Source: Pseudofabraea citricarpa
Lineage: Eukaryota > Ascomycota > Leotiomycetes > Helotiales > Dermateaceae
Direction of reading: 5' to 3'
DNA length: 64,000 bases
NCBI GenBank assembly: GCA_029641185.1
Contig: JAPWGK010000012.1
Span: forward strand, 248,001-312,000
The notes under the pieces were generated by a model, which saw only the letters and a list, made by a program, of their open reading frames with translations, made no database searches and was not told the origin of the DNA. Each line of letters opens with the position of its first letter. The stretch's first letter is position 1. Below are positions 33,356 through 64,000 of this stretch, piece by piece. Made by a program: the position numbers and the translations under genes.

Positions 33356-35310
33356 ATGGCCCCCAAAAAGCAACTTCATCTCAATTTCTTTGATATGACC
33401 TGCAAGTGAGTTTTTTCCCCATATGTTAATTGCACTGATACTAAAACTCCTTCCCAATGGAACCATTTTGTGTCTTCATATGGTTTACCGTCAAGAACTT
33501 TAGAATTAAATAATAACTTTAAAAATAGTGGAAGTCATATGGGAATAGGAATGTGGAAGTAAGTTAGTCTCAAGCGCAGCACGAAAACAAAGACCTAAAC
33601 ATGAAACAGGCTTCCCGAGGATAACTCCAAGTACAAAGACAGCCTCGAGTATTATATCTGGTTAGCAAAACTGGCAGAGAAGGGTAAAATCACAGGCATC
33701 TTCTTTGCTGATACGTACGGGCTACACGAATCGTTCCCCGGCCAGGTGGACGCACAACTCCGGAGCGGCGCAAATTGTGCTCAGATGGATCCAATAGTGT
33801 TTGTTTCGGCGATGGCGTCAGTTTCAAAGTCCGTGTCTTTTGGTATAACTGGGAGCACCTCGTATCTCAATGTTGGTTTTCTTTACAGTTAGGTCAATAG
33901 CAGAACTAATACCACTAATCAGCCTTTCATTATTGCGAGAACATACTCGACGCTCGATCACGCAACTAAAGGAAGAATTGCCTGGAACATAGTCACCAGC
34001 TATAGCAATTCTTCGGCGAAAGCCAATGGCTTGGATAAAATAGTAGCACACGATAAGAGATACGAATATGCCCACGAGTATATGGATTTGGTATATTCGT
34101 AAGCATATCTATTCAAATTACCTAGCTGTACGCTTGCTCACTGACATAGCCTCTGGGAAGGATCTTGGGAAGATGGATCGAAAATGTTCTCCCCGGAGAA
34201 AGGAGCATACGACCCCGAGAAAATCCACAAAATCAACTTTTACGGAAAGCATCATAAGACATCAGCTTATGCTGCTACGCACCCTTCGCCACAGAGAACA
34301 CCGGTTCTGTTTCAAGCGGGTGCCTCGTCTGCAGGCAAAGAATTCGCCGCCAAGCATGCCGAGGCCGTCTTCGTGGGCGGTGGTAAACCTTCCGATACTC
34401 TGAAATACGTCCAAGAAGTGCGGGCAGCTGCGGCAGCCAATGGTCGAGATCCGAACCATATCAAAGTTTTCCCACAAATCACTCCAATCCTTGGAAGGAC
34501 GATAGAAGAAGCTCAGGCCAAGTACGACAAGTATAAGGCTTGCATTGATTATGCTGGTGGTTTAGCGAAGCTCAGTGGATACTTGAATATCGACTTGACA
34601 TCTTATCCACTCGATGAGCCATTTAAGATAGATCCAACCTCGAAGTCAGATAATGCCATTCATGCTATTATTGACACCGTCAAAGGTTTTGATGGCGAAA
34701 TTACTCCCAGGATTTTAGGTGAGAAGATGGCTTTCGGCGGATTTGGGCCTATGCCTGTTGGTACACCAGAGATGATTGCCGATGTGATGGAAGACTGGGT
34801 TAATAATGGTGATGTGGATGGGTTCAATGTAGCCTGTGAGATCTCCCCTGTCTTATATATATATATATATATATATATATTTCTTTTTTCATTATGGCTA
34901 ACTTTTGAAAAGATGTCTCGAATCCCGAGTCTTACGAGGACCTTGTCGAATTATTGGTCCCGGTATTGCAGAAGCGAGGTCTTATGTGGGATGAATATGC
35001 AGTTCCGGGTGGTACATATCGAGAAAATCTTCTCCGGACACCAGGTCAAGCTGTTCAGCCTGATGGCCATCCGGCAAGGCAGTTTCGTTATGACATCTTG
35101 AGCAAAGAATATGCGGATGAAAAGGGTGATATTACTATTGACAGACGGGATCTTGAAACCGACAAGGAGATACAAGTTGCATCTTCACTTGTTGTTGAAA
35201 CATCAAAGGATAGGATTTTGCCGGATCAGAAAGAAGCTGATGCTTTATCTCCAGCTGTGAATGGCCTCAAAATAAGCGAGCAGCCAACAACAGTCCAAGC
35301 GTTGGCATAA
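33356..35310 (+). CDS. Luciferase-like FMN monooxygenase (NtaA/SnaA/DszA type)
   Basis: Six exons: 33356-33405, 33529-33558, 33610-33871, 33923-34098, 34150-34835, 34913-35310; 533 residues. These enzymes use FMNH2 from a partner reductase and O2 to oxidise small substrates such as nitrilotriacetate, sulfonates or dibenzothiophene sulfone. The N-terminus LHLNFFDMTC and then HMGIGMW, GITGSTSYLNPFIIARTYS, LDHATKGRIAWNIVTSY, LWEGSWEDG and the C-terminal GTYRENLL motif are hallmark segments. Intron 1 is long (123 bases) and intron 5 contains a (TA)n repeat. After the core, at about residue 463, there is an extra tail of about 70 charged residues not usual for the family. Divergent from the NCS1 permease. 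Family secure; substrate unknown. Confidence 0.88.
34854..34881. repeat. (TA)14 microsatellite in an intron
   Basis: Lies wholly inside intron 5 of the flavin monooxygenase (34,836-34,912). Length variation here would not shift the reading frame. Confidence 0.95.
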
Positions 35311-36559
35311 GAAAGTAGAATTGTAGCCGGATGAAATTCAGAGAACAAAAATGTCTATATTTTGTATGAAAGTTACGTTAGGGACCTGACAACTGCTAAT
35401 GGAAGATGCTTTTATGCAAAAGATAAAAATATTATGTCCATTTCGTCACCGTTTGTCCGTGAGCCTGGATGCTGGATGCTGAGGCAGGGAACCTCACAAG
35501 CAAGCGATGGTTTTCATAACGATAGCGCATCTACGTCTGAGTAATCTGTGCCATGGGTCGCGATTAGTTGAAGGACTTTGTCTTATTCTTGTAAAGTATT
35601 GGTACTTTGATAGATAAGAGTCACCTCGGCAACTGGAGATATCTTTGCTGCGTCATTTTATGTAGCCTTGATATACGTACAGCACACATGAGCAGTTGTG
35701 TGCTACTCAGATAAAAGTAAGACAAAGGAACCCGAGGAAGCCTTGGAGCCGACCTGATTAGTCGATAGTGTGAAACATTAGAGTTTGTGAAAGAAGGATA
35801 TAGTTGTGTCTCTTTCAGAAACCAAAGAATAATATACAAATTGCGAAAACCAATTTCCTCATAAACAGCATTCCAACAATGCCATTGGGAAAAGCATCCC
35901 TTTGCCCCTTTCTGAATATTATCTATTCTTGCTGATGCCGTCGGCAGCCCGGCATGACTGCGGTAATTCACAGCTGGCGAAAAAACCCGTCTAGACGAAC
36001 TGTTAAGTCAGGGTTCTTCCTGCCATGTGTTTCGGAACTTCCCTAGCCAATTTCCGGCAAACGATCACTGTGGCTGACAATGGATCGGCTCCGTCAAGGA
36101 TGCTAAATAAGCTTTTTTACATTCCTTTCTCCTCCCTCATACGAGGTCAACAAGCACTTGATCGAGACCATTAGATGTTGAAAATGCTGAAGTTCGACGT
36201 TTATTTTGGCTCTTGTTCTGCCTCTGTGATTTATAACACTGATCAAACATTTTCTGGTGAAGTTTGCGTTTTATAACATTGCATACGTTGCTTTCATAGA
36301 CATCAAGTGGGCCAAGCGCGTAAGGTATGACGCGTTCGGAGTTGCTGCTCCTCCATCCTACCGTCAAGCCTGAGGTGCTCTTAAAAGTATGAGAATAGAA
36401 AGTTTGCGCCACAATAAAGTCATCATCAACCCCAGATAAAGGGGGGTTTGGATTATTACTTCACCTTCATCTGCTCTTCTATACCGTCATTGATATTCTT
36501 TGCCTCACTCAATAATATATGGAGTGACTTCCTTTCAAAGGTCGGATACCATTGCCATA
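35311..36559. other. Intergenic, no supported gene
   Basis: Several short ORFs exist on both strands (for example minus 36,412-36,137, about 91 residues), but none has family features or a splice partner. The 3' part is the promoter of the glycosyltransferase. Confidence 0.55.
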
Positions 36560-37984
36560 ATGCAGGTGCAAAATCTCACACCGACCCACTTGCGGCTTCT
36601 TGCTCTTTCAGCTTTAATTCTTCTCGGGTTCACCGGCCTAATTTTTGAGTATCATTCGTTGTTACAAGAATCAATTATTCCCAAGTTAAGGAGTCCATCC
36701 TCATTATGGAATCCCCCAACCATCTTGGCAACGCCTTCTGCTTCAAATCTTGAGTTCTGGTCGTTATTTGCACCAATTTTAGCTGCCGGTGCTCCGCGAT
36801 GCCCGGAACCAGAACTTGTCGGCAAGGCAACTGCAAAATTAAGAAATCAAGAGGGAACCGTGAATGTCGGGAATTTCGTGGAAATGGAAAAGGCTGATGT
36901 CGAATCTATGCGAAAAACTCATGCATGGTTCGTAGATCAAATCCAACACCGGGGCCCGGCTTTGCCATACCAAGAAGGCACGCAAGGTATCGTCACATCA
37001 GCTGGCGCTTCATACTTCCCACCTCTTATTGTCAGTCTCCAATTTTTGCGCCGTACAGGCTCCAATCTTCCAGTCGAGGTTTTTCTTGCCACGCCGGACG
37101 AATTTGAGCCACTTATTTGCGACGAGATACTTCCGTCTCTCAATGCCAAATGTATCATTCTTTCCGACATCATCGACGAGTTCGAACTACCATTTACGTT
37201 TACGAAGTATCAGCTCAAGGCTTTTGCGATACTTTTCTCATCTTTCGAGTCTGTGCTTTTCTTGGACGCAGATAACTTTCCTGTCGAGTCACCAGATTCT
37301 CTCTTTACCGAAGAGCCATTTTTATCTCATCATTTGGTACTATGGCCAGACTATTGGACCCCAACTGTATCACCACTTTACAACACCATCTCAGGTTTGA
37401 AAGATAACCTATTAGCTGGTCGTGCAACAGTTGAAGCGGGACAGATTCTGATCTCAAAGAAACACCATTCGACAACATTACTACTTGTCGCATATTATAA
37501 TTGCTACAGCACTTATTTTTATCACTTGATGTCGCAGGGAGGGCCAGGAGAAGGAGACAAAGAAACCTTCGCAGATGCAGCACTTGTACTCGGAGCACCA
37601 TTTTACGACGTGAAGCAGCGCCCTAGACCACTTGGTACGGCTGGAAACGGGGCAGCTGTGCTCCAAGCACATCCGGCGGACGATGCGAATCGCACCAGAG
37701 ATCATGAAATTGCTCGGCCGCTTTTTATACATGCCAGCTGGCCACCGAAGTTGAATGCGCTTCATAACTTTCAAAAGCATCGCCAGTGGGGAACCAGAGG
37801 AAACTCGAAGAAGCTGTTTGGTCTTGATATCGAACCGATCGCGTGGGGTTTCATGGTAGAAATGGCATGCGGCACGAAAATCCAATTCCGAGAGTGGGGA
37901 GATAAAATCGAGCACGGAATCTGCGAAAGAACGAAGCAAAGCTATAAGGATATGTTCGAACAAGAATACGTACCTTCGCCCTGA
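36560..37984 (+). CDS. Mnn1/Mnn2-like alpha-mannosyltransferase
   Basis: A single exon; I prefer the ATG at 36,560 (474 residues) because it places the membrane anchor directly after a short cytosolic tail. An in-frame ATG at 36,500 is possible. It is a type II Golgi protein: anchor LRLLALSALILLGFTGLIF at about residues 10-30, then a stem, then the catalytic domain. Key signs are PLIVSLQFLRRTGSNLPVEVF, the YQLKAFAILFSSFESVLFLDADNFP block with the DAD metal motif near residue 234, and LVLWPDYW. This matches the alpha-mannosyltransferase family that extends N- or O-linked mannans. Acceptor linkage cannot be told. Not obviously linked to its neighbours. Confidence 0.88.
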   Translation: MQVQNLTPTHLRLLALSALILLGFTGLIFEYHSLLQESIIPKLRSPSSLWNPPTILATPSASNLEFWSLFAPILAAGAPRCPEPELVGKATAKLRNQEGTVNVGNFVEMEKADVESMRKTHAWFVDQIQHRGPALPYQEGTQGIVTSAGASYFPPLIVSLQFLRRTGSNLPVEVFLATPDEFEPLICDEILPSLNAKCIILSDIIDEFELPFTFTKYQLKAFAILFSSFESVLFLDADNFPVESPDSLFTEEPFLSHHLVLWPDYWTPTVSPLYNTISGLKDNLLAGRATVEAGQILISKKHHSTTLLLVAYYNCYSTYFYHLMSQGGPGEGDKETFADAALVLGAPFYDVKQRPRPLGTAGNGAAVLQAHPADDANRTRDHEIARPLFIHASWPPKLNALHNFQKHRQWGTRGNSKKLFGLDIEPIAWGFMVEMACGTKIQFREWGDKIEHGICERTKQSYKDMFEQEYVPSP

Positions 37985-40950: not shown

Positions 40951-42064
40951 GATGTCGACCAAGTACAAGGGATGAGATTTAAGTAAAAGAGACTGGGAAT
41001 GGTCGAATCTACCAAGAGTCAAGAAATCCAATCCGAGGGCGCTCTATTTAAGAAGCCGTAGTATTGAGTGGACCACAAATAACACAGATTAAGGTGAATA
41101 TTTTTCAAATTCTCAGCAGATAGAAAAAAGGGCAGCAATTACGAATGGCTGGAGGAGAGTCCCAAATCTGGATTTGTCCGCGCCAGACAAGGCAAGGATA
41201 ATATCCTCGGCGCTAAAGGGACACTCACGGATATTCCAACCACTAGTACAATAAGCCCATGCCTCCTTTTTACTCCGAAGCCGGAACAAAAATATGTTTT
41301 ACTAAATTCTGTATCCAAAGTTTTAAGACTCTCCTTTGTCATAAATTACTTATCTAATAGGATTATTCAGTAAGGAACTAGCTCGAAAGTTCAATTGTAT
41401 TGAGTTTTCAACAACGTTGTACTATAAGTGGGGAACGAAAAGTGCTTACTGGATCCTGGGTACTGGGTAGCGGTATTTGTGGCCACACCTTCTTTCTATC
41501 AAGCTTGATGCACATGGGTAATCCTATCGGCCCCATGTGTGGTAGATACCCTTGTGGTCCGGAGGTGGGGGACTTTTATCTGATCTTTTGATTACCAGAT
41601 CGCTGCCTACGAATTTTTCGTAACCTTGTCCGACTGGTCCCACCATGCATTCTCATGCATCTGCAAGAATACGAGATACGCATCCTTGCTTACTCTGACT
41701 ACTTTGGGGAGTAGCTATCAATCAGTAGCTATCAAACGCCACAATCACATCACCATTTCTATCTTGTGACTTTGCAGATTTGTCCGCACGCAAGCCCTCC
41801 TATCACCTCGGCTTTTGCTACTCGTTCTACTCTCCCCTTGAGTTTACAAAATTTGGATAGAAAATTTGGAAGCCCTATCTAGAATCACACCAATTACATT
41901 TTAAGATGGCCTCGAATGTTATTTCGCACCAACAGCATGATTATTGTAGAAATTCCACATTAAGCTGGTATCTTTTCTAAGACCTATGTATAACCTACTC
42001 TGCGTTCTAGTTTTCCCTATTCCTTATTATTTTCCACATTCTAACGTCTCACTACCTGAACTCA
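40951..42064. promoter_or_regulatory. SIT promoter region with SreA-type site
   Basis: Non-coding, 1.1 kb. TTATCTGAT at 41,576-41,584 is the exact reverse complement of ATCAGATAA, 626 bases before the SIT ATG. ATTAGATAA (reverse of 41,350-41,358) matches eight of nine positions 400 bases before it. The ABC gene's 3' end lies at the far side. Confidence 0.5.
41576..41584 (-). promoter_or_regulatory. ATCAGATAA site (SreA/Urbs1-type)
   Basis: An exact match to ATCWGATAA, the iron-repressor GATA element known from Aspergillus and Ustilago siderophore genes, upstream of the SIT transporter. Binding is inferred. Confidence 0.5.
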
Positions 42065-45000
42065 TCAGCTTTCAAAAGATTGATGCAACACACTATCCTG
42101 GTAAGTTTTACTGCGATCCAGAAGTTCCAAGTGTGTACCTTGGTCTACACATTGGCCTTCCTCAATTAAAAATATTTGGTCGGCTCTGTAAATTGTGCTC
42201 AAACGGTGGGCAATTGCAATGATTGTAGTGTTTCCTCCCAAATTAGCAATAGCTTCTTGAATTTTCCTTTCTGAGTCTACATCAAGAGCACTCGTGGACT
42301 CATCCAAGAGAAGTAAGCGTGGCTTTCGAACTAAGGCTCTCGCGATGGAAAGTCGTTGTCTTTGGCCCCCAGAGAACTGTTTTCCGCCATGGCTGCAAAT
42401 AGTTTCATACCCCTGAGGCAGCTCCATGATCACATCATGAATGTTGCTCAATTTGCAAGCCTCTTCAATCTCTGCCTGTTTGGGTGTGTACCCAGGTCTT
42501 GTCCCAAGGCCGATGTTGAACGAAACTGTACCTTCAAACAGAATATTCTCTTGGGGCACAAGTGCAATCTCATCCCTGAAAGAAGCAGATGAGATTCTCG
42601 TTATATCTTGGCCATCAATAATGACAGAGCCAGACGATGGATAGTAAAAACGCTCTAACATGGCAAATGTAGTTGATTTGCCGCATCCGCTTGGCCCAAC
42701 CAAGGCGTAGAATCGACCTGGTTCAATTTTGAGACTCAATCCATTGAGAACAGGGAACTTGGATCGGTTGGGGTATGAGAAATGCACTTTTTGTAACTCT
42801 ACTCCCATGGGCGAGTAAAGCTCTTTATTAGGCGAGGAATCGAATCCCTTGCTGGCCTCAAGATCAAAGCCAGGTTTGATCGGGACGGTCAATTGCGCAT
42901 CCTCAGCATCGGAATCAATTTCCCCTTCAACGGAGTTGGTGTTCACAAGAGTGGCAATGTGAGATGCAGCGTTTCCTGCCTTGGAAATATCTGGGGCAAG
43001 AGCAAGCATTTGTCCACATGATTGCGTGCTGAAGAGGAGAGCTGGTAAGACAATGAAGAACTGCGTTTGCGTGTATAGGCCTGATGCAATCTGCCTTGAG
43101 CCCCACCAGTACGCGAGAGCGCTGATAAGATGACTGATACTGAATGCCAGTGCTAGCCAGAAGTTCCCTACCGTGACAGCTTTCAATATCTCTTGGTATG
43201 GTGCTCGTAGTGAGTGCAAATATTCTTGGTAGAGCTGTTTCTCGAGAGAAAAACTGGAAACAACTCGTACATTGTCCAAAGCTTCCATAGTAATCTCCGT
43301 AGCCTGTGAAAATGCCTTCTTGTGTCGTTCAGCAAATTGACTTTGGACTCGAAGTTTCATCACACCAGCAAAAAGGAGGATGGGAATTGTCGGCACCAGC
43401 ACAATCGCAATTTTCCATGCGAAAGCAAATGAGATGATGATACCCGCAAAGAGGTTCACTGTTGTTGCCAAGAGAAGGCCAATAGTGCTTCCAGTGATGC
43501 CACTTATGGCTGATGCATCGCTCGTAATGTATGAAAGCAGTATTCCTGGACTTCGGCCGTTGGTGCTATGCCATGTTATACTCTGACTCAAAAGTGATCG
43601 AAAAGAAACAGTGCGGATACGATACAGCATCTGATCTGCTGCCCAGCCAAAAGCATATCCACCGATGACATTGGCGAAAAATTCAACGAGTCCGACAATG
43701 AAGAAGAGCAGTCCATATAAGTCACCGCTGTCTCGGATAGACACGGCTGACTTGCATGTACTGAGTCCAGCAACAGTATATCCAAACAGAACTGCGTTAG
43801 AGCTGTAGCTTGCACCGATGATAACTGACATAGCTAGGCCAAGAATAACCAGCAAAATATTCGGGCGAATGAAAGCGAATGCGACTTTGGTGGTGAGCCA
43901 CTTCATCCTTGGTAGAATTTTGTTCTCTTGTACGGACAACGTGGTGGTTCCCGGTGGCTTTTCACCTTTAGACTCGTCAATAGGATAGAGGTCCTTTTGC
44001 TTCTCATCCCGCACGGCTTCTGGAATAAGAGACTTGTCATCTGCTGTAGATATGATTTCAAACTCATCGCCAGAGACTTTCTCTTCTCGGTCGTTCCCTT
44101 CGTTGTCCAATTTTTGGAGCCCAACCATATGCGCATAGACTCCGTCTTGATCAAGCAGATCTCGAGGAGAGCCATGCTCCACTACCTGTCCCTTCTGGAT
44201 CACTACAACCTGATGGGCATCTTTCGCAGTTGCCAAGCGATGGGCAATGGAGACAGTGGTGATGGTTTCGGATACCTTAAGAAGCGCTTCTTGGATAAGT
44301 TTTTCACTCGTCGAGTCAAGAGCTGCCGTAGCCTCATCCAAAATGAGCAGCTTAGGTTCGCGAACAAGAGCAGAAGCAAGAGCAATACGTTGCTTCTGAC
44401 CGCCACTGAGCTGACTACCACTTGGGCCAACCCTTGTTGCTATACCGAATGGCAAGGCCTCGATGAAAGATAGAGCATTGGCCTGGGAAGCAGCATCCTT
44501 AGCTCGACGGATGATCTCGACAATGTCAGAATCACAACTTGCAAGCATTTCTTCTTCAGAACTCCCAGATTGGATCTGCTTTGCAAATTCAGCAATTCTC
44601 ATGCCGAGAATGGCGGAGGCCAGGTGTTGATGATGGCTTGAACCAACCAACCCATACGCAATATTTTCTAAGACAGAGCGGTCCAGCAATAAAGGTTCTT
44701 GCTGCACAAAGCCCATCTGTCCTCGTAGATAGGAAACATTCAGACTTCGAAAACTCTCTGATCCAGTATAAATATCTCCTGATGTTGGGTCATAGAATCG
44801 TTCCAAAAGAGCCACAATGGTTGATTTACCACCTCCCGATGGCCCGACAATCGCTGTATGCTTCTTGGCAGGTATGCGAAAACTGACTCCGCCTAAAATT
44901 GGGTTTTGTGGTCGTGATGGGTACGTGAAGTGAACATCTTGGAAGATGATATCGCCATTACCAAACACGGCATTCTTTTCTCCCTGTTCGGAGGTGCCAT

Positions 45001-46319
45001 CAATCTCTGAAGAACGATTGATAACTTCCAGTAGTCGTTTGGAAGCGCTTGCAGCAGCACTAAAGACATGGATATAAGGAGAAACTTGACTCAGAATAAA
45101 GGAAGCTATAGCATAGATAATCAGTAAATGAGCAACAATGTTTGAATTCGGAGCAGGGGATAACTGACCGTCAATCAATATAAAGATGATGGTGTATACA
45201 GCACCAACAGAAACCCCAGAGTTCTTGCCTTCTACTGAATCGGCGATCAAATGAGCTCCTTTCCAATAAGCCAGAGCATTCGATGAGTATGCAATGAAGA
45301 AAAGGGTTCCCATCTGAGTAGCATGTACCACAGCTTTCTTCAGTGCGTCCTTTTGTGCGCGAGACAAGTGAGCGGAAAATGACTCTTCCAGACGCTCATG
45401 AGCATTGAACGCATGTACTATCTTGAGATGGGAAAGACTGGAAGAAGCTATTGAAGTAGCATTTTCGACATGTTTACCCACGCGACTTCCAAACTTTGAG
45501 GCGAAGTAACCTCCCACTAAAGACATAGCGAAGAAGCATGGAACGATAGCGATGAGAATTCCGGCAATGAGAGGCACCTTGATAAATGCCACGATGTACG
45601 CAGTCACAAAGTAAGAGAGTGTCGCGATGTAGATACCCAGCTTTTCAGATGTCCCCGACTGCACGGTTTCAATGTCGTTCACCAGTCGTGACATGATATC
45701 GCCCGAAGATAAAGAGTCATGAAAGGCGGCTTCCTGTCGGATAACACTGCGAAAATATGTTTTGCGGTACCGACGAGCCAGTCGCTCGCTGAATAGACCC
45801 CAACATGCAGCATAAATATAAATGCTGAAAAAGTTGAAGATGGTAATATAGATGAGGTACAAGACCTTGGTGCGAACGGAGGAGGCATCATACTCGGCGA
45901 CCGAACATGAGACTGTGTTTAGCTCATTGATTAATTGACCAAGGACGATACCGAGTAGAGGCTCAGGGACTCCAGCTGCAATGGCAAAGAATGTCCCTAC
46001 GACCAGCAATAGAATATCTATCTTGGTATAGTTCAGAGAAAACAGCAACCGGATAAAAGTAAACAAGGTCTTGATATCCTTGCCGCTAGGAACGACTTTC
46101 GTCAACTGTCGAGGCTATTTTCTGGGTTAGCATTGGCCTCTTCTTTTGCTCTAAATTTGCAAGACAATTAACGACTGGAAGACAAGACTTCGGCAACAGT
46201 CGAGACAGAGAGTAATCTATTTCAAATTCGTGAAAACGTACTATGATTGCGGAAGCTTTCTTCTCGTTAATGGTCGTGCTCAATGGCTGGTCACCTTCAT
46301 GATGGCGCGATTTCGACAT
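42065..46319 (-). CDS. Full-length ABC exporter (MDR/ABCB type), SitT-like
   Basis: Exons 46319-46242 and 46114-42065, with a likely further in-frame intron of 63 bases (45168-45106: GTCAGT donor, TATAG acceptor). Removing that intron takes the protein from 1375 to 1354 residues and restores the usual GASFILSQ-like helix. Layout is TMD-NBD-TMD-NBD. NBD1: Walker A GPSGGGKST, signature LSGGQKQR, Walker B LLILDEATAALD, H-loop AHRLATA. NBD2: GPSGCGKST, FSGGQRQR, LLLLDESTSALD, AHRLSTI. All catalytic motifs are intact. An ABC transporter of this kind (SitT) lies in the Aspergillus fumigatus siderophore cluster; here it sits between the SIT importer and the hydratase, so export of siderophore or breakdown products is the likely role. 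A drug exporter is the alternative. Confidence 0.92.
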
Positions 46320-46814
46320 GATGGCGCTGGAGAGGAATAGAACATCAACGTCAAGGGCTCGAACTATCTATTCCCAACGACGATAGGAGCAGATCTGGCG
46401 ATTGGATGGCTGTCTCTCTTGCAGCACCATCCAGCCACCAAACAGGAAACCATAAGTTGACATGGTTATAACACGAGAATGATGTCTTCTCCGACCGTCG
46501 GTCACGATGGTTTGTTGAATGTGTGGGCTTGATGTGCCAAGATTGCAAAAGTCTACGTCGGCGACATCAAACCAGCGAGCATCCGCCCTTCGGTGGTTGT
46601 ACTGGTCGGTTAAGTGTGATAATTTCATGGGCAGTTGCAGATCTCGGTACCGTTACTGCAATGTACGAGGTACGCTGGGCTGAAACGGGTGCTGGAACGA
46701 CCCGTTGATTGCTTCGCTTAATTAAAAGCGGGCTAAAAGGAGTGAAGGGATGAATAACAAGCATATTCCGAACTCCGCATCATTAATCAGATCATCAGAT
46801 AAATAAAACTCAAA
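46320..46814. promoter_or_regulatory. ABC exporter promoter with SreA-type site
   Basis: 495 bases between the ABC start and the hydratase stop. ATCAGATAA lies at 46,794-46,802, 475 bases before the ABC ATG. It also overlaps the hydratase 3' flank. Confidence 0.45.
46794..46802 (+). promoter_or_regulatory. ATCAGATAA site (SreA/Urbs1-type)
   Basis: A second exact match to ATCWGATAA, upstream of the ABC exporter. A chance match to a nine-base pattern is possible but less likely twice in one locus. Confidence 0.45.
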
Positions 46815-47719
46815 CTATAGTTTGCAGACCCTCCACCTCGGCTTACGTTTCTCCACGAAAGCTTTGACGCCCTCATGAAAGTTCGGCCCCTCAATGAGCT
46901 TAGAGTACCAATTATCCACCAAGATGGAGCTAGCATCTTCTACACTTGCCACTTCCCATCCAAGATGGAGACCTTCCATGGTCACTCGAATACTATCTGG
47001 GCTGTTCGCTGCGATCGCCGTTGCCATTGCCACTGCTTTGGCCAATAGCTGACTATGCTCTACCACCTCCGTCACCAGGCCCCAACGCTCCAGCTGAGAT
47101 GCACTGAAAGTCAGCCCAGTCAAGGTTATCTGGGCCGCTCGTTGTTTGCCGACGACACGTACGAGACGTGGGAGAGATCCAGCCACGGCAGCAATCCCTC
47201 GTTGCACTTCCGGCAGCCCAAAAGTAGCTTTCTCACTAGCAATTACTAGGTCGCAGTTGACCATCATTTCAAAGCCACCCCCGAGACAATGTCCGTTAAC
47301 AGCGGCAATGATGGGTTTTGTGCCTCGGCGGCGAGGTAATCCAGCTAGGCCTGGCGCTGTCATCTTGTTGACGGCCCCACTCGCATTAAGTGCGTTCCAT
47401 TCTGTGATAATTTTATTTAAGCATATGAATCCAAGTTGCAATGAGAAGATCAAAAGATAGAGAAAAGACGAAAAAAGTGGGAAGAAGTGGGACTACCTTT
47501 GAGATCAGCTCCAGTGCAGAAGGAATTTCCAGTCCCTGTGATGATGGCCACATGTAGACTAGGATCATTGTCGAACCATTCCCACAAGCTTTGAATTTCC
47601 ACACTTAAGGCGAGCGGTATGCAGTTCATGTGCCGAGGTCGATTGAGGGTCAGAACCAAGACTTGCGGAGTAGGGAATGATATTAGGCTGTCCCGAACTT
47701 GGGGGTGTTGTGTTGTCAT
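46815..47719 (-). CDS. sidH: Enoyl-CoA hydratase/isomerase, SidH-like
   Basis: Exons 47719-47497 and 47401-46815; 269 residues, crotonase size. In fusarinine biosynthesis SidH dehydrates mevalonyl-CoA to anhydromevalonyl-CoA. Crotonase marks: VLVLTLNRPRHMN at the N-terminus, the first oxyanion-hole loop TGTGNSFCTGADLK, and the second, IIAAVNGHCLGGGFEMMVNCDL, followed by ATFGLPEVQRGIAA with the family Glu. The protein ends RVCKL; CKL fits a PTS1 peroxisomal signal. I chose the ATG at 47,719; an in-frame ATG at 47,788 would add 23 residues. Shares a 393-base divergent promoter with the acyltransferase. The SidH role rests on neighbours; the fold is certain. Confidence 0.85.
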
Positions 47720-48112: not shown

Positions 48113-49525
<1,413 letters not shown>

Positions 49526-50398: not shown

Positions 50399-53300
50399 AT
50401 GGAATCTATTTCAGAACCGTGGGACTGTTTTCTACAGCAGGAAATTGCACCTCGTGATGTGCAATTCCAACACACGTTCTTCCCCCTGCAGAATTCCGAA
50501 CTTTCCAATAGTCCCAAAACGGATAGACTGAGACAAGTTGAGCGTTTTCAATTAGGGAATGTCCAGGAATTGACAACTCAGGACGATTTTAATGCACTCG
50601 TTAATAGCTATGTTCAGAATATTATGACTTTGACCGGTCAGGATGTTATTGTGTTCTGGATTATCGTACGGCAAAAAACACAGACTAACAAGCGCAAAAT
50701 AATTCGAGCAGAGTTCTTGGGAAATCCTGTTGTACTGGACTGGAAAATATATGGTGATCCTTTGCAAGATGGCGAGTCTTTATCGGGAATATCGGATTTT
50801 TGTTTGTGTCTGGATATGAATGAATTAGAGACGGAAGTCGATTTGAACATCCCAGTAAGCACCTGTCTGACCAATCTCTACCATAATATAAATAATGGCT
50901 GGCTAACACATATTCTGTTACTCATAGGTTAAATTTGCAATGCAAGTCGAGTTCAGATCTCGGTCCCACAACATTTTCTTCGAATCTGATTTGCGGCCTC
51001 AGGATGAAATGGCGAATATCCTTCAGCAATTTAAATCGACTTCACAGGACCAGAAAAATAGTCAGGATGATATGGGTTTTTGGACAGAGGAGCTACAGGA
51101 CTTTGTGGGAAGCTGTGATCGGCAATTCCCAAGTCTATCCTGTGAGCGTTGGATGGCACAATCAGATGCGGGCATCCTTTCGCAGACTCTCTCCTTAGAT
51201 GTTTCCATGGAGGAAATAGAGCTTTTTGTCAACAAGAATTCCTTAAAGTCAGCTGGATCAGTGATTCGTGCTGCTTTCGCGTATACTTTGGCAGAATATC
51301 TCGAATCCGAAAAAGTTATCTTGGGTGAAACTATCGAGGGTAGCCCAGAAACAGCTACTGAGCCGTCCATGTCAGTTTTACCAATCCCCATTGCTATTTC
51401 CCCTCAGGACAGCTCTCGAGATATAGTTTCCCGCATCGATGAATTTATCGCGAAGTCAGTTTCAGTTCGTATTATATCTCAACAGCTGGTCTCCGATATC
51501 CTACAATGCCAGCCAGCTCAGCCTCCTCACAATGCGGCCTTTATATACCGGACGGACTTTGAACCGCAATCTTGTGCTTTGACTGAGCTTGGCAATTCAT
51601 TCATTTTACCGCCACAAAAACATTCTATTGCATTAGCCGTGCAATCTTGGAAGGATAATTCATTTGCGTGTACTCTTTCAGCCAGGGAGGATTTAATGGA
51701 TCTCCCTCATTTGGAAATGGTGTTGCAGGAAATCAATGCTCTGGTCATCGCCATGGTTGCTGCACCCGATCAGCCTATGCGTGATCTCACGAAGAAATTT
51801 CCAGTAGACCTGTTATCCTTACATGCGCCATTGGCGAGCGAACAGCTTCTTCGGGCACCTTCTATATCTCCTTTCCATTGGGTTGATCACTGGGCCGCAT
51901 CCAATCCCACATGGAAAGCCTTGGAGATTTGTACGGCAATTAACGACCAAAATATTGTGTTGAAGACGTGGTCATATCTTGAACTGTCCCAAACTTCCAA
52001 TCAGGTGTGTTCTTGGTTAGTCAAGCAAGGCTGGCAGAAAAAGATGATCGCGGTTTGTTTGGGCCGTTCGTTCATGGCATATGCTCTGGTGCTAGGCATC
52101 TGGAAAAGCGGAAATTGTTATCTGCCGCTGGCAGAAGACCTTCCAGAGGAGCGTCGTGTTTTTCTACTTAGTGATAGCGATGCTTCTGTGCTACTCACGG
52201 ACAAAGAGACGTCGAGCAACTTGGTTCCTCCGAGCCATTGCCGCATCATCGACATCACCTCGACCGAGTTCCTTGAAGTGCTCGATAAGGTCGAGGAGGC
52301 CACGCCGCTTAAAGTAGAAGCGACAGATAATAGTTACCTTCTATACACATCTGGATCGACTGGGTTGCCCAAGGGCGTCTTGGTCGGCCGTGGGAACCTC
52401 TCTGCGTTTGTCGAAGCGCAGTCTGAATATATTTGTCGTGATGTTCCTGATACTTTGAAACTGGGCGGTTCGGGCAAATACCTTGCGCATGCTAGTCGAG
52501 CCTTTGACGTTCATGTATGCGAGATGGTACTTGCCTGGCGCCACGGGCTCCGATTGTTGACAGCGCCTCGGTCGATGCTGCTAGATAATCTGCCGCTGGT
52601 GCTTCGCCAACTTCATGTCACCCACGCAGGTTTTGTGCCATCACTCCTGGAGCAGACGGGGCTTACAGCAGAAGAGTTGCCAGATCTTCGCTACCTAGGC
52701 GTTGGCGGAGAAAAAATCTCAGAGACGATCATAGAGCGATTTGTGAGCAAGGGATCTATTACTCTTGTGAACGCATATGGCCCCACGGAGGTGTCCATTG
52801 GCATGACCAGCCACACAGTAACAGCGCAGTCGACCATCCGCAATATTGGTACCGCAGTGGGCAACATCACCATCTTCGTTCTAGAGCCTGGGACCGCAGA
52901 GCTTGTGAAACGTGGTCAGCCAGGAGAGCTGTGCGTGACGGGAGATCTCGTGGCAAATGGCTACTTGAATCGTCCGGATGCCACAGGCTTCACTGATTTC
53001 CAGGGTCAACGCATGTACCGTACTGGTGACATTGTACGGCTGATGGCTAACAACTGCATCGAGTATCTGGGTCGCCGTGATAACCAAGCCAAAATCCGTG
53101 GCCAACGTCTTGAGCTCGAGGAGGTATCGGTTGCCCTGCGACGGTGTGCTGATCGTCCTGTCCAAGTCACTTCGCTGGTGGTACCTTCGACCATCACGCA
53201 GCGTCCACAATTAGTGGCCTTCATCAGCCCTTCAGGAGAAGGTCCCCAGCAGTCCCAGGCACAACCGACATTTCTGGAAGATCTGTACCAGGAATGGACC

Positions 53301-56300
53301 CCCCAGATTCTGGCGCGATGCCGCGAGCAGCTACCTGCATACATGGTCCCGAGTGTACTGCTACCCGTCAGTTTCATCCCCATCCAGATCTCGGGAAAAG
53401 CAGATGGACGCCGGCTCATTTCTCTATACCAAAGCCTCTCGGCACCTACTATTCTGCGAGCGACGTCGGGCCCCTCAGTGGCGCCGGGTCCCAATCCAGC
53501 AGAGACGTCCGCGACCATGAATGCCGACGAGGAGCTGGTGCATCGTCTTCTGTGTACAGCGGTATCGGCAGACCCCAGCATGGTTACCAGCATGACAAAC
53601 ATTATGCAGCTGGGCATTGACAGTCTGAACTCGATCGGCTTCGCAGCCAAAATGCGCAAGGCCGGCTACGTCTGTGCTGTGTCGGATATTTTGAAGCATC
53701 CTACAATATCCGAACTTGCAGCGTTGCCGAAGTCCCGTGCTTCTGGGACCAAGCTTCATGCCCAGTTCGATGAAGTTAAGCGACGGTTAGATGACATCGA
53801 CCACTCTGCGCGGCAGCTGCCGAAAGCGGTACCCAATTCTGCCATTGCTATAGTCCGACCATGCTTTACGCTCCAGGAAAGCCTTGTCGCGAGCTCGTTG
53901 AATGATTCCTCGCAGTCCTTGTACATCAATCATATCACGTGGAGGTTAGGACCACGGACGAACTTTGCTTCTTTGAAGACGGCATTTGAAGATTTGATTA
54001 CGGAAAACGAGATTCTACGTACCTGCTTCCACTTTTCGGAAGACAAGATTGTTCAGCTTGTTCTCAAACCTCGTGCAGCAGATTTACACTGGCGTCAGAT
54101 AGCTGTCACAGATGAGCAAAATGCCCAGAGCCAGTTTGCGGATATTCAGGCTGAGATTGCAGCGGATATTGTCCAAAGAATTCAGAGCACACCTCCTTTC
54201 CGTATCTTGGCAGCTTCTTCGATAGATAATCTCTGCCCAGGATGGCTGATGCTCTCCATTCATCATTCCATCTTTGATGGAGCTAGCATGCTTCTGTTTC
54301 TTGAAAGGCTGCAGCATCATTACAAGGGAGAGCGCCCTACGCATTATACAGACCTCACACCTCTATACCAGCACTTTTCCATGACTGATAATGAAGCCAC
54401 CGAGAATTTCTGGTGTGACTATCTCGCAGGCTGTCAGCCGAGTCTCGTGGCCGCCGAGAACTCTTCAGACCCTAAGTTGTTCGAAATAGTGACACAGGTC
54501 TTACCTTTCAAGTTATCCACTGTCGCTAAGTTGGCATCCAAGATATCAACAACGGCGCCGTCGGTATTGGAAACAGTTTGGGGGATCGCACTAGCAAATT
54601 ACTTGAAGCAGGGAGATATCATCTTTGGCCGGGTCTTGAATGGTCGCGCGATTGCCGTAGAGTCAGTGGAAAGCATGTTGGTCCCATTGGTAACAACAGT
54701 ACCTGTACGACTCAAACTTCCTGCTGGCCCATCCAGTGTAGTCAGCCTTATTAAGGAGAACTATAAGACTAGCTTGGACGTCTTACAGTATCAGCATACT
54801 GCACTACGCGACATTCAACGGTTTATCCGAGCATCTGGCCCGTTATTCAACTCTATGTTCACTTACATAGCAATTGGCCCTCGAGCGATGTCAGATGAAT
54901 TATTGCTGGATATGGATACTGTTATGCCCGTGGACTACCCTCTGGCATTGGAGATCAGAGCTGAGACCGAGATAGACAGCATCACCTTACGTTTGAGGGT
55001 GGATACCAGCTCTAGTGCCCTGAAAGATGCTCGAACCTTAATCAAGACCATGACCATTCTATTACAAGCCTTGACGTCCAGTGGAGATGCCATGGTGAAT
55101 GGGCAATCGGAGGGCAGCGCATCAATCCAACAACCAGAAAAGTTGATTTGGGACGAAGAACAATGGGAAGAGGACGAAACGAAGCTGCGGAGTCTGGTTT
55201 CTGAAATCACCCATCTTCCTCATTTCCAAATTTCCAAGAATGCGTCTTTCTTCGCACTTGGGATTGACTCGGTTATTGCGATTCAGCTGGCTCGTCGTGC
55301 CCAAAAGATGGGACTGAGCATGTCTTCTGGCGATGTGATGAAACATCCATCTATCGGTGCTCTTTACAACCATTTGAGGAATCTTCACCAGAAGCATCCT
55401 GCTCACTTAGTTGACGAGGCTGTCCCAACCAATATGATAAAGATCGATCCATATGATGCAAACGATACCATTTTGGAAACATACCCTTGCACGCCGTTGC
55501 AAACGGCAATGATAGCTCAGTGCCTGGGCTCTGAGGGCAGATTGTATGTTCATCATCATGTAGTTGTGGTCGATGATTCGATCGACCTCGATCAGTTGAC
55601 TAGTGCTTGGCTTCAGCTTGTCCAGCAGACGGATATTCTCCGCACATCATTTCATCAGCATGAATCAAGTCGTGGGTTCATAGCAGCTGTCCATAGCTAC
55701 CCTCAGCTGTGTTTATCCCACCAATCAGATGTTTCCTCTTTTTCTGAAGCCATCGACGGAATAGTCGAGAAATCAGTATATTCTCAAAAAACATCCTTTC
55801 ATTCACCTCCCTGGGATATTACATTTTTAACTAAGCAGTCGAAACGACTTATGGTTGTCACAATGCATCACTGCCTCTATGACGGGTTCTCTATGCCACT
55901 ACTTTTCGATCATGTTGAAAGCATATATCGAGGGGAAGGCCCTCGTATTGGCTCTTTTGCACCTGCTGCACGCAGAATTGCCCAAATGCAGAAATCTTCA
56001 ATACAGTTTTGGGCTGACAAGCTTCAAGGCTACTGCAATCCTCGACTTTTGGAACCATTGCCAGTAAAAGGGCAAGCGCCTGTACAGTGGGCAGAAGCGA
56101 AGGTGACAGTACCATTGGCCGATTTGCAACATTATTGTGCTAGCCTTGGTATCACCATACAGACAGTTGCCTTGCTTGCATTTGGAAGATCCTTGGCGAC
56201 ACTTTTAGGTCAGAGAGATGTTGTATTTGGTCATGTGGTGTCTGGAAGAGGGCTAGACATCGATGCTCCAGAATCGATTCTTGGTCCCCTTTTCAACACC

Positions 56301-58475
56301 GTACCATTCCGCTTGACACTTGATCCGATTCTTCAAAGCACTCGCTCGACCCTGAATCAGATCCAGAGTTTCTCTGCAGACTCTCAATCTCATCAACATG
56401 CATCATTAGGCATGGTGCAGAAACTCTGGCGTCAAACGACTCCGATGGCGGGCTCTTCCTTGTTCGATAGTATTTTCACATTTAATAAGACCAGCGACAC
56501 AAATCCCATGGCCATCTTCAAGCCTTATGTATCGGACCGTCTCCCAGATATTCCTGATTACCGGCTAAACGTCGAGTTTGAGCAAAGTCCCGAATGCCTT
56601 CTTGTACGAACATCAAGCAGAGCACTCATGGCAAGCCAGGATCAGTTCAACGCTTGGGTCCAGGATCTTATTCTTGGCTTTGATGACATTGTGTCCCACC
56701 CTGACGCACCAGTTCTTAGCTTCCCCTCCGAAACTAAGTCTTTGCCACTCCATGCCCCTGTTGAGGGACGTAATAGTGGAAACGTAGGGGCAGATACCCC
56801 GATTCAAGCATACCATGCCGGTATAATCAAGGAAAGCATAGCAAAGGTCACAGGCATACCTCTACACATGATTGACCAGGAAAGCAACGTTTTTGCAATG
56901 GGACTGGACTCTATCTTGGCGATTGATGTTAGTGTTATCTGTCGAAATGCGGGTTTGAAGCTCTCTATCAGTGATATCCTTCAAGGAGAGACTATCAGCG
57001 GTATTGCCAAGCTTGCCGCCAAAAAGTTTACTGTTTCCCCAAATGGAATAAAATCGAATACCTCTGAAGAGTATCACATCAGCCCGGATGCTAAGGCAAA
57101 AGCTCTATCCACTTTACGTTTATCAGACGAGACTGTGGAAACAGTTCTGCCTTGTTTGAGTGGTCAGACGTACTATCTTGCCCGCTGGCTGCAGACTGGC
57201 CGTAAACTGTGGGAGTTCACGTTTCCTTTTGTCAGTCGCTCCCGGATCGAGGCGGAGCCATTGAAACAAGCATGGCTACTTCTCAGGCAGAGACACAGCA
57301 TTCTTCGCACCTCCTTCGCAGCAGTATCGCCCAATGAGATTGTGCAAGTAGTCTGGAAAGCATCCACTGTGGACGAGAGCGATGGCTTCAACTGCCAACA
57401 ACTATCTGGAGAGCTTCAGACAGAAATCGAAGACAAGTTTCAAAGCATTGCTGATAAGCCTTCTGATCTCCTCGCACCTCCTGCCCGTCTATGTCTGGTG
57501 CAGCATCCTGACTCTGATGTCCTTCTCCTCACACTTCATCATGCACTTTATGACGCATGGACAATCCCGATGCTTTTAAAAGATCTGGAGGCTCTATACC
57601 TGGGGCAAACACTACCACCACCAATAGACTTCTCCTCATTTATCCGTCATACTCAGCTGGCATCTAATACCAAAACCCAAGATGTGTATTGGAAACATGC
57701 GCTCACTATGGCCCAGTCCACAATTTTGGGATCGGACACGCAATCAGCCGCGGGAAATTTGCGGCTCACGTCTTCCAAAGTCCTTAGCTATCCGTTAGAA
57801 ATCAGTAAAATTGAGGCTTTGTTTCGTCAGAAAGGTATTTCTATACGCGCTGTTGTTCTTCTGGCACTTGGTCGTAGCCTTGCACGCGCTACAGATGTCA
57901 CCAATCCGGCTCTCGGCCTCTTCCAGTTCGGTCGCTCCAGCGACTATCCTAGCATAGAAGCGATGGCAGGTCCTGCTATCAATGTTCTACCCTTAGTCAT
58001 CTCTAACGCTGTTGCCCGCGAGCCACTGGAAGCATTACAGTCGATCCAGCAAGGTCTGATCGAACGCAACTCTTATGACCAGACAGACCTCAAACAACTC
58101 CTCCAGATGATAGAAACGGATTCCAGTGCCCTCCACTTCAACCTTTTTGCCAATCTGTTCTGGGGTCAAATGAAGGAGTCCTCTGGCGAACAATCGGACA
58201 CTCTCTTCGCTCCATTCCAGATGAATTCCACGAGAAATTCAGTTGAGGATAGTCCATTCAAAGGGGAAACAACTGTTGACTTATTTGACACAACCTGGTT
58301 ACGTCCCAATAATGTGCTTCTTGACGTGAACTATAGCCAGACAGAGGACGCTCTTGACTGGAATCTAGACTATCCAACGGAATCATTGTCCGCAATCGCG
58401 GCGGAGAGTTTCCTGAGAGACATAGGAAGGGAAATTGGGGTAATTGCAGATGGGCTTACACATTGTCTTCCATAG
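50399..58475 (+). CDS. Siderophore NRPS, (C*)-A-T-C-T-C-T-C
   Basis: Exons 50399-50854 and 50928-58475; 2667 residues. Exon 1 (152 residues) is joined in frame, so the nearest long-ORF ATG at 50,940 is not the start. Residues 1 to about 440: a partial condensation-like region without HHxxxDG. A domain about 465-950: YTSGSTGLPKG near 623, NAYGPTE, YRTGDIV near 849, KIRGQRLELEEV, SGKADGRRL (A10 Lys). T1 GIDSL near 1048; C1 HHSIFDG near 1264; T2 GIDSV near 1597; C2 HHCLYDG near 1798; T3 GLDSI near 2143; C3 HHALYDA near 2356. There is no thioesterase; the last C domain should release the product. Only one A domain charges three T domains, so it should work repeatedly on N5-acyl-N5-hydroxyornithine and join three units. 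Function in hydroxamate assembly rests on the neighbouring SidF- and SidH-like genes. Confidence 0.92.
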
Positions 58476-62340: not shown

Positions 62341-64000
62341 CTACAATTTAATCTGTCCTCGCTTGGTGTTGCGAATTCTGTCTCCATACCAGCCAAAGAC
62401 CCACGGCAGTGGTGCAAATGCCAGAGCAACAAAACCGAGTAGACTATTTCCCCAGCCCCATCCAAGTGCATCATACATATCGAGACCGCATAGTGGAAGA
62501 AGAGCTCCAAGAAGACTTCGAAGAACGGCGTTTGCAGCGATGACACTAGCTGCATACTGCGTGAATGCATCGACCAGGTAAGTTTGAATGGACATAAGAA
62601 TAGCAATTGAGCCAAAGCCAATAATGGCCGTTCCTAGTTGTGCCACAATCCAGTGCACATGTTTCTCGGCGGCCCAGCCATAGAGCAAGAATCCGATAGG
62701 TAGAGCGAGAGATCCAGGCACTGTGATAATAAGGGGTAGACGATCTTCTGGGGTAATGGTCTTTCCTTTAGCCGCTCTCGACTTGATGGTCTTGTCGCTC
62801 AAAATGGCGACGTACAGCAGACCGCATAGCGTACCAATACCACTTCCGATGAAAGCCAACCCGGCGGCAGAAGTCGAGAAACCATAAACATCTTCGAAAA
62901 TGAAAGTAAAAGTTGTAAAGAGAATGTAAAGTAAACCATACATGATGGCGATGTAACTGCACATGGCTGTGACAATAGGACAGAGGATCAGCATCTTCAA
63001 AGGGCGTACGATGCTAACCTTCATCAGGTCCTTGTTGGATAGTTCTGAAGCGAGCTTTGATCGATAGGCGGGGTTTCCAGTTGATTTTCTGAGTTTAGCT
63101 GCCTTTCTCTCGAGGATTGTTACTGCATAAGTTTCCTTCATAACAATGAATGCGAATAGACTCATGCAACCAATCTATTGATCTGATCAGCTTGTGCGAC
63201 ATTGTCTAACCGAAAGATCTCTGCACTTACAGCAATGGCAATAACCCAGAAGACCCAGCGCCAGCCTGCGCCCTCCGTCAGATATCCACCAGCGATTGGT
63301 CCGACCATGGGTCCCAGAATGGGTCCCACAGACCACAGAGACATCGCCAGACCTCGCTTCTCCCTCGGCATAATATCTGCAATGGTTCCACTACCGCATG
63401 TAATTGTTGCCACACCCGCAAACCCGGAGAGAAATCGGAAAGCAAGAAGCATGCCTGGGTTTTGTGCAACGGCGCACAAAATCGTAAAGGTTAAGAAGAG
63501 GACATTCGTGACATTGTAGATGATTACGCGGCCAAACATCTCGCTTAGAGGCGCAAGAAGGAGAGGTCCAAAGGCAAATCCAAGGACGAAAATCGAGACA
63601 ACGAAGGTTGCGAAAGTAGAGGAGGTTGTATTGAAGTCTAACATGACTTGTGGGATGCCAGGCGCAAACATAGAGGATGCGAGAGGACTGAATAAAAAAC
63701 AAAATTAGTTTATCCTAATTAAGGATTGGGAGTAGTTCTTGCTTTACTCACACTAGAAAACTGATACCAGACATAGCAAGCACGTTAAGCCATTTCTTCG
63801 ACATCGGCCAGTTCATGGGGTTTTCTGGGTCCTGGTCCGCTGGCTCTTCCCACCAAACCACAAATTCTGAGTCGGGTTCGCCACTGCCTGTTTGACTGTT
63901 TGTTTCATTCTTCACTGACTCCGAAGATGGATCTGCTGTGTCCTTCTGTTTCGAATCATTGGAAATAGCGTCTCTGTCTTTCTCCTTCTCGTTTGGATAC
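62341..64000 (-). CDS. MFS transporter, DHA1 type (5' end outside window)
   Basis: Exons: first exon enters from beyond 64,000 and ends at 63,752; then 63687-63241; then 63174-62341 with the stop. The visible part has an acidic/polar N-terminus and then EFVVWWEEPADQDPENPMNWPMSKKW, a usual lead-in for fungal DHA1 drug/polyamine carriers. About 12 membrane segments follow, with LSEMFGRV in loop 2-3, LSGFAGVATITCGSGTIADIMPREKRG, GPMVGPIAGGYL (motif C) and GWRWVFWVIAIAIG at the joined exons. Introns are 64 and 66 bases, GT-AG. It may belong to the siderophore locus (product export) or be independent; 2.9 kb separate it from the small membrane gene. Confidence 0.87.

Follow-up and report, generated by a model that had tools for sequence, protein, structure and literature searches.

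The fusarinine-type synthetase SidD of Aspergillus fumigatus (P0178) is a nonribosomal peptide synthetase (NRPS) that uses anhydromevalonyl-hydroxyornithine (AMHO) as the substrate; its adenylation (A), thiolation (T), and condensation (C) domains are arranged as A-T-C-(degenerate A)-T-C, and its terminal C domain carries the motif SHAQYDG. The ferrichrome synthetase SidC of Aspergillus nidulans (P0294) contains the segment C2-A3-T-C-T-C-T-C preceded by modules harboring A1 and A2, and its A3 domain is described as using acetyl-hydroxyornithine. Two basidiomycete enzymes of type VI, CsNPS2 (basidioferrin) and Cpf1 (coprinoferrin), reportedly retain the tri-ornithine region alone, with one A domain and acetyl or hexanoyl ornithine as the building block; the passages describing them, on which our comparison relies entirely, mention neither SidF nor SidH (PMC10192304). 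For ascomycetes, a basidiomycete type VI synthetase is mentioned in Thermomyces dupontii (PMC11376295), and basidioferrin is tabulated as a predicted compound of NRPS-like clusters of Ceratocystis (PMC10491840). Here, we analyze a stretch of 64,000 nucleotides from Pseudofabraea citricarpa (contig JAPWGK010000012.1, positions 248,001 to 312,000; referred to as the window) that encodes, at positions 50399..58475, an NRPS with a single A domain (the single-A NRPS) next to genes of the SidF and SidH types. As in type VI (truncated) enzymes, the one A domain is followed by the T-C units of the tri-ornithine region, and the protein is well supported as a 5'-truncated ferrichrome synthetase of the NPS1/SidC lineage that has kept the tri-ornithine half. 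Combined with a fusarinine-type precursor set, this enzyme would probably produce a linear trimer of AMHO, such as des(diserylglycyl)ferrirhodin (DDF).

Gene structure and domain anatomy

The gene and its domains are as follows.

50399..58475, + strand: P. citricarpa single-A NRPS gene, (c)-A-T-C-T-C-T-C, 2667 aa (exons 50399-50854 and 50928-58475)
50855..50927, + strand: intron of 73 bases, GTAAGC...TAG (GT-AG), with a CTAAC branch point
50399..51836, + strand: condensation domain in eroded form (residues 1-455), a homologue of the C domain preceding A3 in SidC; HHxxxDG lost
51837..53465, + strand: A domain (Pfam, trees, pocket)
53487..53738, + strand: T1 (GIDSL), by motif
53784..55091, + strand: C1 (HHSIFDG), pairs with C3 of SidC
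55149..55388, + strand: T2 (GIDSV), by motif
55437..56726, + strand: C2 (HHCLYDG), pairs with C4 of SidC
56790..57026, + strand: T3 (GLDSI), by motif
57072..58451, + strand: terminal C (HHALYDA), pairs with the terminal C of SidC

The spliced frame encodes 2667 aa without inner stops, and the alignment of its N terminus with eight relatives runs through the exon junction. A Pfam search of the 2515-aa open frame at 50928-58475 revealed one AMP-binding, three PP-binding, and three Condensation domains. This result and the motifs confirm the initial annotation, made from the sequence alone, which had recognized one full A domain followed by the T motifs GIDSL, GIDSV, and GLDSI and the C motifs HHSIFDG, HHCLYDG, and HHALYDA. 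The A-T-C-T-C-T-C layout given there stands, but the eroded C domain in front of A had been missed, and the complete layout is (c)-A-T-C-T-C-T-C.

As also anticipated, Pfam detected no second or degenerate A domain in the single-A NRPS, and its C-to-T linkers comprise only 19 and 27 aa, versus 282, 290, and 291 aa by the same measurement in SidD of A. fumigatus, Venustampulla, and P. citricarpa, respectively. A weak degenerate-A match was present in the linker of two further SidD-type proteins (10 and 12 bits; n = 6 measured), and the linker is 147 aa long in a second SidD-like gene of P. citricarpa.

Profiles of the front region (residues 1-455) match the C domain located immediately before A3 in many SidC proteins. 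When the region is aligned with eight relatives and with the C2 domains of six SidC copies, the HHxxxDG motif is gone from the single-A NRPS and from all eight relatives; the SidC C2 domains keep HHxxxD in six of six cases and the full HHxxxDG in three. This eroded C2 alone remains in front of A, since no SidC-type Ser/Gly modules 1 and 2 were found in the single-A NRPS. Speculatively, it may persist as a scaffold for the A domain.

Descent from the NPS1/SidC lineage

Trees were built from proteins chosen from sets of 240 to 355. A domains covering <55% of the profile were dropped from the 83-row A-domain tree; those with <40% profile coverage or <40 bits were dropped from the A-to-end tree, from the 29-row A tree, and from the pocket comparison; and C domains of 330 aa or less were dropped from the C-domain tree. 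In the 83-row tree, the A domain of the single-A NRPS groups with 16 Aspergillus and Penicillium single-A rows (support of 100). The next groups outward are A3 of Neofusicoccum and Lasiodiplodia SidC (support of 100) and then other NPS1/SidC-lineage A3 domains, the named ones being from ascomycetes (support of 96); the A domains of SidD form a distant clade. The same grouping was obtained in the A-to-end tree (45 rows), in which the P. citricarpa NRPS is sister to 17 single-A rows (15 named) and not nested within them, and in a careful 29-row A tree (100/100 support). The C-domain tree (75 rows) places the front eroded domain, which has a long branch, with C2 of SidC and the other three with C3, C4, and the terminal C. 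A3 and the following C domains thus group in register with the NPS1/SidC lineage.

The initial annotation had considered an independent loss of A domains, an ascomycete clade of its own, or transfer as the origin of the layout. Descent from SidD/NPS6 by A-domain loss is ruled out by the A and C trees, which place all domains in the NPS1/SidC lineage, and by the linker length; forcing the A domain into one group with six A domains of the SidD type lowered the log-likelihood by 33 (approximately unbiased test, p-AU 0.00189). Because the A and C domains match the C-terminal half of SidC one by one, the change was a loss of N-terminal ferrichrome-synthetase modules and not a removal of A domains from a SidD. 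Neither the A domain nor the C domains nest within SidD/NPS6, the A domain grouping with A3 of SidC, and the suggested ascomycete clade is recovered with the Aspergillus/Penicillium single-A rows.

A protein-set search returned 44 proteins that are single-A by domain content among the best 120 of 2409 matches. Forty of these 44 appear to belong to the same family; P0072 and P0078 fall elsewhere in the tree, and P0102 and P0107 display only 33% identity. Within these best 120 matches, 29 of the 40 family members are named, all of them from Aspergillus or Penicillium, and 11 are without names. The layout, initially described as known mainly from basidiomycetes, is more frequent than had been supposed. 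Placement in the A-to-end tree was obtained for 17 of the 40 members, the rest being assigned by identity (43 to 56%) and layout, with some partial models. The family (P0001 from Aspergillus bombycis and 39 others) has the same domains as the P. citricarpa NRPS, complete models of ~2650 aa, and an eroded front C domain in eight of eight aligned members, but shares only the above identity with the P. citricarpa enzyme and forms its sister group. The eroded C2 being common to both, we infer that a single truncation preceded the split of the P. citricarpa and Aspergillus/Penicillium genes. SidC is also listed for Aspergillus melleus, Aspergillus indologenus, and Aspergillus homomorphus, and SidD for A. 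melleus and Aspergillus steynii; the single-A enzyme is therefore an extra one in these species.

The NPS1/SidC-lineage synthetases of Neofusicoccum and Lasiodiplodia (P0032 and P0317) are in register with the P. citricarpa NRPS from A3 to the end, as A. nidulans SidC is from C2 onward, but they retain A1-T-C-A2-T in front. The A2 domain of P0032 is identical to A2 (Gly) of A. nidulans SidC at 17 of 17 pocket positions, and A1 of P0057 matches A1 (Ser) of SidC at 16 of 17. Since the A1 and A2 pockets of the nearest full-length relatives resemble these Ser and Gly domains, the lost modules would add what DDF lacks in comparison to ferrirhodin.

Substrate, bond type, and product

At the 17 positions of Bushley 2008, the A-domain pocket reads H A D V C E L G V G G V A T I G K and is identical in 34 of the 36 relatives examined. 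Among solved proteins, the A domain matches SidN A3 best (475 bits; runner-up, 296), which is reported to activate cis-AMHO (PMC11253843). The P. citricarpa NRPS keeps 13 of the 17 SidN pocket residues, compared with 7 in A. nidulans SidC A3, 9 in A. fumigatus SidC A3, and 8 in SidD. The A3 domains of P0032, P0317, and P0353 have the same letters as the P. citricarpa NRPS at the 17 SidN positions, and these full-length SidC proteins of Neofusicoccum and Lasiodiplodia may make a ferrirhodin-like AMHO ferrichrome. A SidC-type protein of Botrytis cinerea (P0324) keeps 14 of the 17 residues, and ferrirhodin has been reported from this species (PMC9920419 and PMC6941272).

Two genes located upstream from the single-A NRPS are relevant to the supply of AMHO.

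48113..49525, + strand: SidF-type hydroxyornithine transacylase (both exons match Pfam PF13523; the start codon and the intron at 49097-49153 set by eye)
46815..47492, - strand: SidH-type mevalonyl-CoA hydratase, main exon (match to solved SidH)

The first exon of the SidF-type gene has the solved A. fumigatus SidF (7qf6) as its best match (576.8 bits), and the SidH-type exon scored 353.4 bits against the solved A. fumigatus SidH (7oeq), with a runner-up of 118.5 bits. The SidF and SidH partners named in the initial annotation are thus corroborated, and the same neighbors are found at the SidD locus of P. citricarpa (L029). The SidD of that locus, like the A. fumigatus enzyme, differs from the single-A NRPS by its layout, its A and C lineages, and its terminal C motif. 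The pocket leans toward AMHO without proving it, and the SidF and SidH neighbors are the stronger evidence; AMHO is the likely, though not proven, substrate of the A domain.

We infer the bond type and the product from the anatomy, origin, and neighbors of the gene. SidH and SidF would provide AMHO, and the sole A domain would activate it and load T1, T2, and T3. In A. nidulans SidC, A3 is reported to load the T domains located one and two modules downstream, with no loading detected when the C domain preceding those T domains was absent (PMC10192304). C1 and C2 would form two bonds, predicted to be peptide bonds mainly because the C domains descend from SidC. The terminal C domain would release the trimer, most likely linear DDF or a close relative, and ABC and MFS transporters would move it. 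The terminal C active site, HHALYDA, has the DA ending found in nine of nine aligned NPS1/SidC-lineage terminal C domains, of which seven have HHxxYDA; the four SidD-type terminal C domains all have SHAQYDG or SHAQYDE. A trimer of AMHO had been put forward initially as the simplest product, and our reading agrees with this view.

We tentatively propose that the single-A family is the DDF synthetase, i.e., a ferrirhodin-type assembly line minus the Ser, Ser, and Gly modules, set in a copy of a fusarinine-precursor locus; the type VI design would then have arisen independently in ascomycetes. Two carriers of the single-A family, A. melleus and A. steynii, belong to the same section as Aspergillus ochraceus. 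The latter species is the source of DDF, described as a linear peptide of three cis-AMHO units (PMC9452667). In the available portions of the open-access literature, no passage was found that links DDF with a gene from this ascomycete family. Bushley 2008 raised DDF as a possible product of the type VI enzyme of Coprinopsis (PMC2644324), the gene of which we take to be Cpf1; Coprinopsis cinerea Cpf1 is now said to make coprinoferrin (PMC10192304), a type VI product described as a linear amide trimer (PMC12617850).

Several observations weigh against AMHO as the substrate or against DDF as the product. A3 of a Fusarium sacchari enzyme labeled ferrirhodin synthetase (P0341), the expression of which has been reported (PMC5219032), keeps only 7 of the 17 SidN residues; several full-length SidC proteins without an assigned product keep 11 to 14, and some 9. 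The pocket code was dropped as decisive for AMHO because this ferrirhodin synthetase control is no better than A. nidulans SidC. One of the two Botrytis papers (PMC9920419 or PMC6941272) guesses that a relative of BcNRPS2, and not P0324, makes ferrirhodin. In vivo, trans-AMHO is the reported substrate of SidN itself (PMC3642064), so that either the cis or the trans form may be used here. Two of the nine NPS1/SidC-lineage terminal C domains have NHxxYDA, and the terminal C motif differs from the SidD type by few letters. No match named A. ochraceus is present among the best 120 of 2409. One source treats CsNPS2-like enzymes as SidD homologues and credits DDF of Agaricus to SidC (PMC8152254). 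Finally, the window contains two iron-regulator sites of the form ATCWGATAA, a number no higher than chance would give (1.47 expected).

The alternatives differ in the bonds, the product, the substrate, or the source of the enzyme. An ester-linked trimer of AMHO (fusarinine B or C), made by a SidC-derived route, would suit the adjoining SidF and SidH genes, which recall the P. citricarpa SidD locus, and the AMHO-like pocket. We nevertheless consider it unlikely: the C domains group in register with those of SidC and not with those of SidD, the terminal C carries a SidC-like motif, and the genome already has a SidD with SidF and SidH on contig C2 and a SidD-like gene on contig C10. A cyclic trimer of AMHO, or a larger product made with another NRPS supplying Ser and Gly, is quite doubtful. 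The front C domain lacks HHxxxDG in nine of nine aligned proteins and is not expected to take up a chain from upstream, no large open reading frame (ORF) lies between SidF and the single-A NRPS, and a profile search of contig C4 revealed no condensation match beyond this enzyme; yet HHALYDA is retained in the terminal C domain, as in SidC with its cyclic product, and a distant partner NRPS could exist, the A-domain family search having scored 14 of 120 candidates. It is improbable that the enzyme uses acetyl-hydroxyornithine as a basidioferrin-like type VI synthetase, with SidF and SidH adjacent by coincidence, since both the pocket and the neighbors lean to AMHO, even though the layout is that of CsNPS2 (PMC10192304) and one ferrirhodin synthetase does not obey the pocket rule.

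A transfer of the gene from basidiomycetes (type VI enzymes CsNPS2 and Cpf1), an option also raised initially, has in its favor the shared layout and the name given to the Thermomyces gene (PMC11376295) but is very hard to credit, the closest kin being ascomycete single-A enzymes and then Neofusicoccum/Lasiodiplodia SidC, with the sampled basidiomycete rows, to which CsNPS2 and Cpf1 do not belong, outside. These rows are Exidia, Auricularia, Armillaria, Wallemia, and smuts in the A-domain tree and Exidia, Auricularia, and Sporisorium in the A-to-end tree; basidiomycete and NPS2 rows carry long branches, and their exact placement is unsure. Of the best 120 of 1523 matches to the Exidia enzyme, none carries the name CsNPS2 or Cpf1. 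The P. citricarpa NRPS appears as sister to, and not inside, the Aspergillus/Penicillium rows, and horizontal transfer may or may not have been involved.

Genomic context and implications

The remaining features of the window are as follows.

42065..46114, - strand: ABC transporter, 1349 aa, of a type present at three other siderophore-gene loci of the genome
39032..40683, - strand: MFS transporter in two ORFs, possible locus member (Pfam; paralogue search)
41576-41584 (-) and 46794-46802 (+): ATCAGATAA sites upstream of the MFS and ABC genes (motif search)
34145-35101, + strand: luciferase-like monooxygenase flanking the locus
36494-37984, + strand: putative mannosyltransferase flanking the locus
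62341-63704, - strand: additional MFS transporter flanking the locus

The three best paralogues of the ABC transporter are located near SidA and SidF on contig C1, beside the SidD locus on contig C2, and beside the second SidD-like gene on contig C10. The window locus is one of four siderophore-gene loci of P. citricarpa with this type of ABC transporter. A profile search found no condensation domain near the siderophore locus of contig C1. A relative of the MFS transporter of the window, although not the best one, is located at 400 kb on contig C2, near the SidD locus.

The P. citricarpa genome (G000) also holds an NPS2-type SidC and two SidD-like genes, of which the SidD on contig C2 has its own SidF and SidH. 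The second SidD-like gene (A-T-C-T-C; L028:2303-7696, G000:C10:516501-526500), which the ABC transporter gene of that locus adjoins, differs in its pocket, which reads D V D C C H at 235-278; our guess is that it encodes a coprogen-type synthetase. SidC (G000:C10, L025-L027) is arranged as A-T-C-A-T-C-T-C-A-T-C-T-C-T-C, as is typical of the NPS2 lineage. Its two ORFs share 62% identity over 3010 aa and 52% identity over 1103 aa, respectively, with Lachnellula, a similarity pointing to a leotiomycete host. At approximately 80-102 kb of G000:C2, an open frame of 7359 aa contains seven condensation matches and represents a very large NRPS without relation to the present finding.

The single-A family offers a candidate gene family for DDF, a siderophore known chemically but not assigned to such a gene in the portions of the literature found. 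As a short natural enzyme in which one A domain would serve three T domains, it makes the downstream loading of SidC addressable without the other modules. As the locus suggests, recombination between the pathways of ferrichrome and fusarinine is possible, the assembly line of one being combined with the building block of the other.

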